Of a stretch of 37,331 nt of DNA, positions 10,489 to 26,181 are shown piece after piece. Both the position numbers and the translations under genes were made by a program. This stretch comes from Ekhidna sp. (GTDB taxonomy: Bacteria; Bacteroidota; Bacteroidia; Cytophagales; Cyclobacteriaceae), in NCBI GenBank assembly GCA_014323825.1, contig JACONI010000121.1, positions 7,867-45,197 on the forward strand. The letters are read 5' to 3'. The first letter of the stretch is position 1; each line of letters opens with the position of its first letter. The notes under the pieces are model-generated. The model saw nothing but the letters and a program-made list of their open reading frames with translations. It was not told the DNA's origin and ran no database searches.

Positions 10489-10768
10489 TGCGTTATTATT
10501 CGTAACATCATTCAACGTGTAATAATCGTTCTTTTTATTCAAACATAAAGGGATGAAAAGGCGTAAGACCCTGCTACGCATATTTTGACTTTGCCGGAGC
10601 GTGTTTTGACTTTCAGAAATGCATTCCTTCTGCTTACAATTGTGTTCTTTTCTCCCGCAGATAGGCACAGATTCGCCAGGTGTTGTCAAATACCACAGCT
10701 TAATAAAAATTGGGTGTTGTGAAGTCCATTTCTAAAAAAATACGGAAATTACAAAATACTTTAAGCGT

Positions 10769-11164: not shown

Positions 11165-11401
11165 GGCTTCATCATATCCTTTGAAGTAACGCTAGATTTT
11201 GAACTAAAACACCGGATTTTATTTTTTGGGAACTCAGTTAAAGTCCTTGAACAGGAGGCGTTGAAAAAGCAAATGACGGATGAGATAATTGATTTAGTCG
11301 AGCCATTGTTTATGGCTCTTCTTCCCTACATAATGCTCCCGCTAGGTGTAGTTTGTAACTATATTTTAGATATATTCTGCTCACCTGCCCAAAAATATTG
11401 A
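11165..11401 (+). pseudogene. Remnant resembling the C-terminus of a WYL-domain regulator
   Basis: This frame reads FEVTLDFELKHRILFFG followed by NSVKVLEQEALKKQM. This resembles the end of WYL-domain transcription factors, where a final beta-strand is followed by a (V)xVLxPxxL helix. No start codon, no helix-turn-helix and no WYL core are present upstream. The frame runs on past the homologous part into a palindromic repeat before stopping. I treat it as a decayed 3' end. The similarity is from memory, so confidence is low. Confidence 0.3.
11345..11365 (+). repeat. Dispersed palindromic repeat, copy 1 (decayed right arm)
   Basis: The left arm GGTGTAGTT, preceded by CTA, and spacer TGT match the two other copies, but the right arm AACTATATT has diverged from AACTACACC. 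All three copies have the same orientation. The following 11402-11629 shows no gene I can support. Confidence 0.6.
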
Positions 11402-11629
11402 ACTCTATTGCAACTTTACATTATCTTTATAGTATAAGTTTTGAGGTAATATATTTACCTGAAGTCAGAGACTTTTTTAGGTAAATTGCCCCTCAAGCAC
11501 CAAGAAACTGATTTATAATATTAATACAGCAAAGCAGGTTAATTTGGAATTGGAAAGATATTGACAATGATATTTTTAAAGATTTGACGGATAAGCTCAA
11601 CCAAAACCGACAGAATTGATTAAAATGAA

Positions 11630-11866
11630 ATGCCAGCAATTTTAAAACATAGTGGATATAGATTTTTCTTTTATGTCAATGACCATCAGCCCAAACACAT
11701 TCATATTGAAAAAGACAATAAAACGGCAAAATTTAATCTTGAGCATTTGCAGTTGATCAAGTCAAGGAAGTTTAATGCTTCTGAAATAAGGGAAATTCGT
11801 AAATTAGTCGAAAATAATATAACACTCTTTATAAAAAAATGGGATGAATACTTTAACAATAAATAA
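11630..11866 (+). CDS. DUF4160 family protein (module 1)
   Basis: The 78-residue protein is a typical short DUF4160 member. It carries the family signature N17DHQPKHIH25, with the Asn-Asp-His and the closing HxH. The fold and activity are, to my knowledge, not established. It overlaps by 23 nt the following DUF2442 gene. This gene order recurs widely in bacteria and has the compact form of a toxin-antitoxin pair, but a toxin role is inference. The pair sits between two copies of a palindromic repeat (11345 and 12218) in a patch of decayed genes, consistent with accessory DNA. Confidence 0.8.
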   Translation: MPAILKHSGYRFFFYVNDHQPKHIHIEKDNKTAKFNLEHLQLIKSRKFNASEIREIRKLVENNITLFIKKWDEYFNNK

Positions 11867-12080
11867 ATCATTTTTAGCGACAGACCTATCATTTACGGAA
11901 AATAAGATGATCGTTTTTTTTGAAGATGGCAGAGAATTGGCTATTCCCCTTGAATGGTTTTCAAAACTGCGAAATGCAACTAAAGAACAACTAAAAAATT
12001 GGCGTTTTATTGGAGACGGGGAGGGCATACATTGGGAAGAATTAGATGAGGATATACTTGTAGAAAACTTATTAGAATGA
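11844..12080 (+). CDS. DUF2442 family protein (module 1)
   Basis: The 78-residue protein matches DUF2442: a short beta-rich start, the strand pair MIVFFEDGRELAIPLEWFSKL and the ending WRFIGDGEGIHWEELDEDI. The IHWxxLDEDI tail is a family hallmark. Some DUF2442 proteins are fused to DNA-binding domains elsewhere, so an antitoxin-like regulatory role has been suggested by context; this one has no such domain. The start is placed at the ATG inside the end of the DUF4160 gene, giving the long overlap seen in coupled pairs. Confidence 0.82.
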   Translation: MNTLTINKSFLATDLSFTENKMIVFFEDGRELAIPLEWFSKLRNATKEQLKNWRFIGDGEGIHWEELDEDILVENLLE

Positions 12081-12217
12081 TATAATCAAAATAGATTTTT
12101 TCAGGGAATTGGTTGCTCCTTTGAAGGATATAAACGGGATATGCAAACAGAAGCATAAATAAGAAATAGATGAGTAAAAAAATCCTTGAGATGCCTGCAA
12201 AGCAACCCTCTCTAGGT

Positions 12218-12238
12218 GGTGTAGTTTGCAACTACACC
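12218..12238 (+). repeat. Dispersed palindromic repeat, copy 2
   Basis: GGTGTAGTT, spacer TGC and AACTACACC form a perfect 9-bp stem. It is preceded by CTAGGT, with GGT duplicated compared with the other copies. Confidence 0.75.
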
Positions 12239-13980: not shown

Positions 13981-14791
13981 GTCATCTGAATTTTTTGGAA
14001 ATAAGCCTAAAACGGAGGCGATTGATATTAATTCCTATCTTAAAAGAATAAGAGCACAGAAAGAGAAGCCCTCTATCAGCTATTTAAAAAAACTACACAG
14101 GGCTCATCTGATAAATGTACCGTTTGAAAATCTTGACATTCATTATAAAAACAAAATAATTCTTGATTACCGGAAAATTTACAAAAAGATTGTGAGCAGA
14201 AGAAGGGGTGGGTTTTGCTACGAACTTAATGGCCTTTTTTACCATCTTCTTTATCATCTGGGCTTCAATAGCTATTTAATATCAGCGAGGGTGAAACAGG
14301 AAGAAGGGTTTTCGAAGGATTATGATCACATGGCCGTCCTGGTTTTACTTGAAAATGAACGCTGGTTAGTTGATGTTGGATTTGGCGACTCTTTTATTTA
14401 TCCTAAAAAAATAGAAATCAATAAAGTACAAATGGACTATGTTGATTATTGGAGAGTCGTTGCTGACCCGGATGAAAACCTGATACTTCAGCAGTCTGAT
14501 GATTATTCGAGTTTTCGGTCTAAATATTTTTTCACGCTTGAAAAAAAGCAGCCTATTCAATTTATGGATAGATGCGAGTTTCACCAAACTTCCATAGAAT
14601 CACATTTTACAAAACAAAAGCTAATAACCCGGCTGACGGCAAAAGGAAGAATTATGCTGACAGAAAGGAAACTTAAAATTTCCGAACTGGGAAATACCAC
14701 AGAGCAGGAAATTACGAATGAAGATGAATTCTTATCAAAACTCCGACAGCATTTTGGAATTGGCTTTCGCCAGCTGATGCGTAACCCGTAA
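13967..14791 (+). CDS. Arylamine N-acetyltransferase
   Basis: The enzyme family transfers an acetyl or other acyl group from CoA to arylamines and related substrates. Using the ATG at 13967 the protein has 274 residues, typical of the family, and carries the catalytic triad Cys84 (RRGGFCYELNG), His121 (DYDHMAVLV) and Asp136 (LVDVGFGD). The motif VPFENLD (51-57) near the N-terminus also fits. An earlier TTG-type start would add eight residues without family support. It overlaps the secreted-protein gene by 14 nt and is followed by a terminator. The native substrate is unknown. Confidence 0.93.
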   Translation: MLTNKSSEFFGNKPKTEAIDINSYLKRIRAQKEKPSISYLKKLHRAHLINVPFENLDIHYKNKIILDYRKIYKKIVSRRRGGFCYELNGLFYHLLYHLGFNSYLISARVKQEEGFSKDYDHMAVLVLLENERWLVDVGFGDSFIYPKKIEINKVQMDYVDYWRVVADPDENLILQQSDDYSSFRSKYFFTLEKKQPIQFMDRCEFHQTSIESHFTKQKLITRLTAKGRIMLTERKLKISELGNTTEQEITNEDEFLSKLRQHFGIGFRQLMRNP

Positions 14792-15221: not shown

Positions 15222-15627
15222 ATTCTAATGTTTAAACTTTTAAGTATTTATTTGCTTCTTTCAATAGCACATCTGGTGTTATTACAGTAAGTATGATTTT
15301 TACACTTATTCAAAATAAAACAAATCATACTAACCTACCCTTAATGTTAAGAGTACAAATATAGTTAAAAACGGAAAAAAAATCTAAAAAGCAACATTAT
15401 TTATCCAATGGCTGCTCCCGTTCCCAACTAGGTGTAGTTTGTAACTACACCTCCCCTTTTCTTCATTAAAATACGCCTGCGCCAATCAGCGAAATCTACT
15501 GGAGAGTAGAAAGCCTGTCGAATGGGTCTGGGGCAAACGCAATGAAAAGACCGTTAGGGCGTTCCGGTGTAAAATAAATGCGTTAGGTATAAAATGGGGC
15601 TGTCTATTGACGGATAATGAGCAGGTT
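15222..15627. other. Gene-free region with one palindromic repeat
   Basis: About 400 bp between the TerB-like gene and sucC. It holds copy 3 of the palindromic repeat at 15430-15452. The right part (about 15475-15600) is higher in G+C than the left but has no open frame I can support and no recognisable RNA structure. Confidence 0.55.
15430..15452 (+). repeat. Dispersed palindromic repeat, copy 3 (best preserved)
   Basis: Arms AGGTGTAGTT and AACTACACCT with spacer TGT form a perfect 10-bp stem, preceded by CT. The upstream TGCTCCCG is shared with copy 1. Confidence 0.75.
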
Positions 15628-24887: not shown

Positions 24888-24984
24888 CGAAAATCAAAGC
24901 CAATTTTTATAATCGGGTATTTTTTTTACTCAAAACCTGTGTAAGAAAGTAATAATATTACTTCAGTTGTGCATTTTAAACGAA

Positions 24985-25439
24985 TGCTCATTTTTATAAG
25001 GGGAGGTAAAGGAAAGAAAGACCGCTATACCTTACTTTCAAAAAAGATCCTCTTATTGCTAAGCGATTATTATAAAAGCTACAATCCCAAATGTTATTTA
25101 TTTGAAGGAAAACCAGGTACTCCCTACTCTGCTTCAAGTGCCGGAAACATCTTTAAACGGAGTAAAAAAAGCGCAAGAATTAATACAAATATCACCTTAC
25201 ATTCATTACGGCATAGTTCTGCTGCACATTTATTGGAAAATGATACCGATTTACGTTATATACAAGAATTACTAGGTCACAAAAGCCCCAAAATAACGAT
25301 GATCCATACCCATGTAACTAATCGTAGTCTTCAAAACATAAAAAATCCATTAGAGGAGACCGAAAAAAGGGAGAAAGATGCTGAACACGCAAAGAATATG
25401 GCAATGATATCAGCGGCAAAAGGAAATAAAGAATCGTAA
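24985..25439 (+). pseudogene. Tyrosine recombinase remnant (C-terminal catalytic part)
   Basis: From the ATG at 24985 the frame starts in the middle of the catalytic domain with [15 protein letters not shown], so the N-terminal DNA-binding domain and the box I Arg are missing. The Lys in [14 protein letters not shown] (His and second Arg) and the LLGHKSP His are kept. The nucleophile is lost: the usual TMIYTHV reads TMIHTHVT, with a CAT codon. The C-terminus is also unusual: after NIKNPL it continues with a 29-residue Lys/Glu/Ala-rich tail instead of the normal short ending. A second copy of its last 57 homologous base pairs occurs at 26008-26064. Confidence 0.8.
25295..25351 (+). repeat. 57-bp direct repeat, copy A (inside recombinase remnant)
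   Basis: This 57-bp segment encodes the recombinase box with the altered Tyr-to-His codon up to NIKNP. It is identical to copy B at 26008-26064, 713 bp away. About 12 bp before each copy are also similar. Confidence 0.95.
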
Positions 25440-25459: not shown

Positions 25460-25708
25460 ATGCCTGAGATAAGTAGATTTTACGGAATAGTTGTGTATAT
25501 GTTTTTCAATGACCATAATCCTCCTCATTTCAAAACGAAATATGGTGAATTTGAAGCGAATATAATGATTTAAAATGGCACTATTTTAAACGGTGATTTG
25601 CCTGTAAGTAAGTTGAAATTGGTTAGTGCTTGGGCAGAGATACACAAAGATCAGTTGATGGAAATGTGGAACTCAAAAGAATTTCATAAAATCGATCCAT
25701 TGAGATAA
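25460..25708 (+). pseudogene. DUF4160 family gene with internal stop (module 2)
   Basis: The frame reads MPEISRFYGIVVYMFFNDH and, through one TAA at 25571-25573 (codon 38), continues with LVSAWAEIHKDQLMEMW to the stop at 25706-25708. Both halves fit DUF4160, and the stop lies where a Lys or similar codon (AAA to TAA) is expected, so a single substitution broke the gene. The signature is also altered: NDHNPPHFK ends with Lys25 in place of the second His seen in module 1. A TATCTTTG box at 25449-25456 may be its promoter. It precedes an intact DUF2442 gene by 2 nt. Confidence 0.78.
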
Positions 25709-25710
25709 TA

Positions 25711-25995
25711 ATGAATAAGATAACCAAAATATCAATTAGTGAACCTTACAAACTCTTATGCTTTTTCAATAATGGAGAACAGCGAATACTTGATTTGGAA
25801 AAGGTTTTAGATCCTGAAAAGAAGTTTGTTAGTAAAGTTTTAACGGTTAATACATTTAAAAAAGTTAGAATTGATTCTTTTGGGGGAATATCTTGGGAAG
25901 GTGTAGCGGAAATGAAAGATTTAGATGGGAAAATAATACCTTGTGATTATGATATTTGTCCGGATTTTGCATATCTAAACTCAACCCCAATATAA
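25711..25995 (+). CDS. DUF2442 family protein (module 2)
   Basis: The 94-residue protein is a DUF2442 member, with LLCFFNNGEQRILDLEKVL and a FGGISWEGVAEMKDLDGKIIPCDYD-type tail. It is of a different subgroup from the module 1 protein (IHWEELDEDI tail). The reading frame is intact although the partner DUF4160 gene is interrupted. If the pair is a toxin-antitoxin-like unit, this would be the antitoxin-like half surviving after loss of the toxin; that is inference. The next segment (25996-26064) is copy B of the recombinase-derived repeat. Confidence 0.8.
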   Translation: MNKITKISISEPYKLLCFFNNGEQRILDLEKVLDPEKKFVSKVLTVNTFKKVRIDSFGGISWEGVAEMKDLDGKIIPCDYDICPDFAYLNSTPI

Positions 25996-26007
25996 AACCC
26001 CCAAAGC

Positions 26008-26064
26008 AACGATGATCCATACCCATGTAACTAATCGTAGTCTTCAAAACATAAAAAATCCATT
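26008..26064 (+). repeat. 57-bp direct repeat, copy B (recombinase 3' end)
   Basis: Identical to copy A at 25295-25351. After it, the recombinase frame would read NPFDAL and stop, a more usual recombinase ending than the tail that follows copy A. Confidence 0.95.
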
Positions 26065-26181
26065 TGACGCGTTATAAAAATAAAACACACAAATAGCCAT
26101 GTTTTATACTTCATATTAGCATGATAAACGCATATATTGCATTTTTATAAATAAGTTATTGATAATAAACTTTTTTACATC

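Follow-up and report, generated by a model that had tools for sequence, protein, structure and literature searches.

The window, that is, the whole stretch of 37,331 nucleotides analyzed here (G000, contig C121, positions 7867–45197), belongs to a 3.0-Mb draft genome, in 122 contigs, of Ekhidna, a member of the Cyclobacteriaceae. In the spacer flanked by rsgA and tag the open reading frame list gives two intact, overlapping frames of 78 amino acids each, which lie between the first two of three copies of the palindrome GGTGTAGTTNNNAACTACACC (Table 1). A preliminary description of this DNA had placed an intact DUF4160/DUF2442 module inside a pair of palindromes, and this arrangement was borne out.

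Table 1. Features of the spacer around the gene pair (window positions; identities and scores as indicated)
Feature	Positions	Strand	Remark
Other dispersed repeat, about 190 bp	10499–10688	+	10 or more additional partial copies genome-wide
IS1-like element fragment, 31 bp, just before REP 1	11303–11333	−	97% to the IS copy of C85
REP-type palindrome, copy 1	11345–11365	+	3 mismatches to consensus
Stretch common to the gene pair and its paralogue in C99/C85	11622–12091	+	89%/88% identity
DUF4160, DhiT-like predicted toxin, 78 aa, intact	11630–11866	+	Pfam 60.2 bits (cut-off 23)
DUF2442, DhiA-like predicted antitoxin, 78 aa, intact	11844–12080	+	Pfam 73.6 bits (cut-off 23.9)
5′ end remnant, 68 bp, of another antitoxin-like gene	12140–12206	+	91% identical to intact C99 relative
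REP-type palindrome, copy 2	12218–12238	+	perfect; directly 3′ of antitoxin remnant
IS1-like remnant left of REP 3	15316–15419	+	element positions 108–212
REP-type palindrome, copy 3	15431–15451	+	perfect; two IS1-like remnants meet here
IS1-like remnant right of REP 3	15522–15616	+	element positions 505–599

DUF4160/DUF2442 pairs are presented in the relevant part of PMC8198452 as the DhiTA toxin–antitoxin (TA) system, validated in Dickeya and E. coli. The window pair resembles DhiTA of Dickeya dadantii in its domain pair, in having the toxin gene first and in the overlap of the two genes, which amounts to 23 bp here as compared with 3 bp in Dickeya. Both domains and the gene order identify it as a predicted DhiTA-type TA module, and the DUF4160 protein is accordingly named a predicted toxin. 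With the NCBIfam equivalog model for DhiT this protein scores 21.2 bits, below the cut-off of 100, and it is therefore a distant relative of DhiT. Seven residues (P2, F14, P21, H23, H25, W71 and F75) are invariant in an alignment of nine DUF4160 relatives. A single-sequence model predicted the toxin fold with a pLDDT of 76 and a pTM of 0.58; the best match of this fold in the PDB (E = 0.13) was uninformative. Searches of solved structures by sequence related the DUF2442 protein to 3k8r (4e-5) and yielded no match below 0.07 for DUF4160.

The spacer around the pair is a mosaic of the 190-bp repeat, IS pieces and a truncated antitoxin-like gene. The short IS1-like stretch in front of REP 1 is present in many IS copies. 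The family of the truncated gene also precedes a PIN toxin in contig C55; its C99 relative belongs to a pair that matches no Pfam family and that we presume to be antitoxin-like, a label which, together with VapD-like and PemK/MazF-like, is our own assumption. It is this 68-bp remnant that had been taken for a frameshifted small protein, and the supposed WYL-like remnant gave no Pfam match in the three forward frames of 11367–11629, translated with stops as X. Among the genomes searched the nearest relative is G009. In all eight congeners carrying both rsgA and tag the two genes lie far apart or on separate contigs.

Allowing up to two mismatches, the palindrome matches the genome 67 times forward and 64 times in reverse; the same pattern written backwards, which served as control, gave 4 and 3 matches. 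These counts are far above chance. The bracket around the gene pair is real. With at most one mismatch the palindrome was found in 14 of 59 genomes (its own and those of relatives), and perfect copies are confined to G000, G009, G010, G020, G027, G030 and G035. In G030 and G010 two palindromes with inverted loops, ∼655 bp apart, flank a gene for a RAYT, a REP-associated tyrosine transposase. Because copies flank RAYT genes in relatives, we regard the palindrome as the REP of a RAYT system. Among the seven genomes with perfect palindromes, four encode proteins at least 84% identical to the RAYT of G030 (G010, G027 with two, G030 itself and G035, where the protein is a fragment); the sole RAYT of G020 is 42% identical. 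Neither the PF01797 family search nor the search with the G030 protein detected a RAYT in G000, and the latter search detected none in G009. The REP family is thus an orphan in this genome, its RAYT being absent from the assembly. A scan of public genomes for the exact palindrome returned at least 118 stretches; the 80 listed come mostly from Cyclobacteriaceae, and 15 of the 26 brackets of 400–2000 bp among them carry RAYT sequence.

With the known REP/RAYT systems (REPtrons, GTAG REPs, TnpA-REP) our palindromes share their dispersed intergenic location and, in relatives, copies on either side of a Y1-type transposase gene. Two differences stand out: the GTAG motif of our palindrome (GGT-GTAG) is found 3 bases into the stem and not at its end, and the window genome lacks a RAYT, TA modules occupying REP brackets instead. 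PMC6006769 is relevant to both points: its passages describe Bacteroidetes subclass 2.6 RAYTs with atypical structures without GT[AG]G, and orphan REPs without transposase are suspected there. Single-stranded GGTGTAGTTTGTAACTACACC would be a candidate RAYT substrate. A text search of the literature for the exact palindrome strings gave no match. For isolated REPs next to genes of at least 100 amino acids, 38 of 50 gene flanks place the REP downstream of the gene, a location also described in the part of PMC3733652 that deals with REP positions. In G009 (for example L178:1904–2107 and L212:4540–4639) the palindrome is found inside a REPIN-like repeat of ∼100 bp whose opposite end carries a second hairpin (AGCGTAGAT...ATCTACGCT); at least seven copies of this repeat resemble C45 of the window genome. 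Furthermore, about ten REPs are located 3′ of paralogous genes for HYR-like repeat proteins (L176, L183, L186, L192, L209, L220, L221, L235 and L236); since the flanks of these paralogues are near-identical, duplication along with a neighboring gene is a further way in which REPs can spread.

The preliminary description had interpreted the palindromes as the ends of a mobile cassette carrying the gene pair. A bracket does exist, and another REP-ended unit of this genome did move with its REPs (see below), yet the closest copies of the pair tell against such a cassette. A second copy is present in two halves: C99 corresponds to window 11622–11966 and C85 to 11962–12091, and each half abuts an 820-bp element which we read by eye as IS1-like and which has 42 places in the genome. 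The split across contigs points either to recombination of IS copies with each other or to a junction made in assembly (the halves are contained in L096, C99:106000–120000, and in L100, the end of C85). The G009 copy, frameshifted and located beside a gene that we take to be lepA, shares 11623–12078 with the window at 78% identity. No palindrome arm was found in the examined flanks of the C99/C85 and G009 copies, and beyond the genes themselves homology covers 8 bp upstream of the first start codon and no more than 11 bp downstream of the final stop, so that it breaks at the gene pair and not at the REPs. Of the six DhiTA-type loci in the genome, REPs closely bracket just one. As the copies share the genes without REP arms and five of six loci stand outside close brackets, what moved did not end at the palindromes, and we consider a REP-ended cassette very improbable for this pair. 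The window pair seems to have arrived without REPs; the simplest account is that a DhiTA module reached a REP-rich patch by some other route. What survives of the cassette idea is some support for REP slots in general.

To describe such slots genome-wide we collected REP sites with up to four mismatches in the stretches around the listed sites (at least 70, with two-mismatch sites after contig C77 covered in part) and defined a bracket as a REP pair less than 2.6 kb apart that holds at least one open reading frame. Six of the resulting 13 brackets contain TA modules. Five of these are solid: the window pair, the C55 row of PIN, PIN_2 and HicA/HicB, and HicB/HicA in C99; the weak candidate is a DUF5615 gene in C84, below cut-off. 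The other seven hold an 84-aa protein with an aspartyl protease (in both C22 and C70), an unassigned pair, a photolyase-related protein, an S1/P1 nuclease, a presumed secreted protein and a presumed GyrB (the last two labeled by eye). Isolated REPs have a TA neighbor at one or two of 34 sites: Pfam assigned no TA family to 26 small neighbors; one protein, which matches Cas2 weakly, looks VapD-like, and a DUF2442 gene is found 1.5 kb off. The larger neighbors, along with three truncated HYR-like ends, were read by eye. TA modules are therefore in excess between REPs in this genome (Fisher test, p = 0.001 for 6/13 versus 1/34 and p = 0.012 for 5/13 versus 2/34), an excess to be read with the caveat that close REP spacing favors short units such as TA modules. 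The genome has two PIN (PF01850) genes, one bracketed and one not. In G009, too, a HicB-like/HicA module occupies a REP slot.

Short units would be expected between close REPs if REPs and TA modules simply gathered in the same permissive DNA, where insertions are harmless and short TA modules make short brackets. The debris mosaic of the window spacer and the several bracketed genes unrelated to TA modules are in keeping with such sharing. However, the IS1-like element, which also resides in accessory DNA, is bracketed at none of its places and lies within 1.5 kb of a REP at only one (60 listed REP sites), and isolated REPs, as described above, seldom adjoin a TA gene. Shared permissive space is thus an improbable explanation of the excess.

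The chief rival is based on loss instead of recruitment: REPs would insert everywhere between genes, and direct pairs would delete the dispensable DNA between them by recombination or slippage, leaving behind addictive TA modules and essential genes without any need to recruit the former. Orientation fits this prediction: judged from the palindrome loop, which flips between copies, nine of the 13 brackets are direct and six of these nine hold a TA module or gyrB, compared with one weak TA candidate in the four inverted brackets. The preference of REPs for positions downstream of genes agrees with it as well, and selective retention accounts for the TA excess. It leaves unexplained, however, the tandem array of three different TA modules in C55 and the REP-ended duplicate in C22 and C70. 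The separators at the TA slots are direct repeats, of 59 bp at 88% identity in C99 and of 35–101 bp at 86–95% in C55. Two different TA modules of C55 share a 101-bp leader at 91% (L173:12605–12701 and 14018–14118), which consists of the REP and a tail up to the start codon and contains TATCTTTG or a close form of it, a sequence similar to the −7 promoter element of Bacteroidetes. The protease unit of C22 and C70 is 95% identical over 1,014 bp; the match starts at a half REP in both contigs and ends just past a full REP, whose loop is flipped between the two copies, and outside these limits the sites differ. This is the one case in which a unit relocated between breakpoints at REPs, whether through transposition or through REP recombination. 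All in all, we rate selective retention as unlikely.

Same-direction repeats between small tandem TA modules, as in C55, recall chromosomal integron cassette arrays, which are rich in TA modules. The palindromes could accordingly be recombination sites of an integron-like integrase and not REPs, and a C-terminal fragment of a tyrosine recombinase (24969–25439, truncated open reading frame) is indeed encoded in the window. No such palindrome is found near this fragment, though, and the genes that the palindrome flanks in relatives encode RAYT transposases and not integrases; in contrast to integron arrays the C55 repeats are of REP type and linked to a transposase. An integron origin is hardly credible on this evidence. 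A second DUF4160/DUF2442 module, with an in-frame stop at codon 38 of the DUF4160 frame, follows the recombinase fragment (25460–25995). The palindrome does not flank it; it is located between 87-bp direct repeats (25281–25367 and 25994–26080). The first of these overlaps the 3′ end of the recombinase reading frame, an arrangement that looks like the duplication of an att-like end. Both modules had been described as bracketed by repeats, which is correct as far as each has repeats; since the second module lacks the palindrome and has its own 87-bp repeat, that statement joined two unrelated repeats.

TA modules at REPs were also observed elsewhere. Cyclobacterium qasimii (L316) has a RAYT gene shortened internally and, behind it, a HepT-like/nucleotidyltransferase module and then ParE/ParD. 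Direct repeats of the RAYT 3′ end plus REP, one 128 bp long at 87% identity and one 66 bp long at 76%, separate them; the REP that lies between RAYT and HepT has six mismatches and is thus degenerate, and 203-bp repeats enclose the whole array. In C. salsum (L310) a ParE-type module is situated between 370-bp repeats of 92% identity, each with the C-terminal end of a RAYT and a REP. Repeats with a RAYT 3′ end on both sides of a TA module are a further observation that selective retention between inserted REPs does not explain. Among the listed public loci TA modules are present in three of the 26 brackets, and these three come from two contigs of this one genus. Small open reading frames matching TA families numbered 7 of 106 within 700 bp of REPs and 1 of 106 beyond 2.5 kb (p = 0.03), with four of the seven from the single locus L316. 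In this comparison six of the 80 loci were left out as presumably belonging to relatives already analyzed, 106 of 109 far frames were used, the far count refers to the families listed (25 of 34), and the near count includes two RelE members whose loci are not named. TA-like genes a few hundred bases from REPs were also seen in Lunatimonas and Cyclobacterium (L276:5536–5972 and L282:5772–5981); these REPs adjoin RAYT genes or fragments, and the L276 locus has a Pfam antitoxin match.

A comparable exchange is found at the rayT locus of E. coli. The order in K-12 is yafL, REP, rayT, REPs, lfhA, and in strain ECL27977 hicB/hicA replace positions 1962–2863 of the K-12 yafL–lfhA stretch: a REP-flanked transposase has given way to TA genes. 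The left breakpoint coincides with the GTAG of the first REP, and this GTAG is also the stop of yafL. HicB or HicA genes occur at this locus in 10 of 40 rows among the matches listed, spread over 5,413 records. The replacement of E. coli rayT by a TA operon is mentioned in print in the relevant passage of PMC6006769, and this sentence was the sole relevant statement in a literature search of limited depth for texts joining RAYTs or REPs to TA modules. E. coli offers one locus, whereas the window genome has several slots and arrays with different TA families.

The statistical excess and the arrays together make REP slots recurrent homes of TA modules. The window pair occupies a slot between two REPs of a REP/RAYT system. 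In the explanation we favor, recombination between direct copies of the REP and its adjoining DNA would allow TA segments to be added, swapped or duplicated, perhaps with the help of RAYT cutting single-stranded REPs, and addiction would then hold the segments in place. REP recombination, perhaps RAYT-assisted, would in this way recruit TA modules. The window pair itself would either have landed in a REP-rich spacer or have been bracketed later, amid IS and antitoxin fragments. Neither an empty site nor an excision product was seen for any slot. As a whole, the combination of recurrent slots, gain and exchange by recombination between repeats, retention by addiction and a window pair that came without REPs has, in our judgment, about an even chance of being correct. 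A broader and rather unlikely extension would see REP/RAYT loci as an integron-like platform for TA modules in Bacteroidota and E. coli, with the REP plus RAYT 3′ end as separator, RAYT and TA modules as alternative tenants and arrays that outlast the transposase. On such a platform, a similarly speculative step, TA modules would be added in tandem beside the transposase or in its place.

How small TA modules travel when they encode no transposase and what RAYTs do for their hosts are both open questions, which would converge if REP slots were to recruit or retain TA modules. Strains can be compared for their numbers of REP-flanked slots, and docking at a resident REP can be assayed; the exchange of rayT for HicBA in E. 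coli makes the idea testable in a laboratory species.
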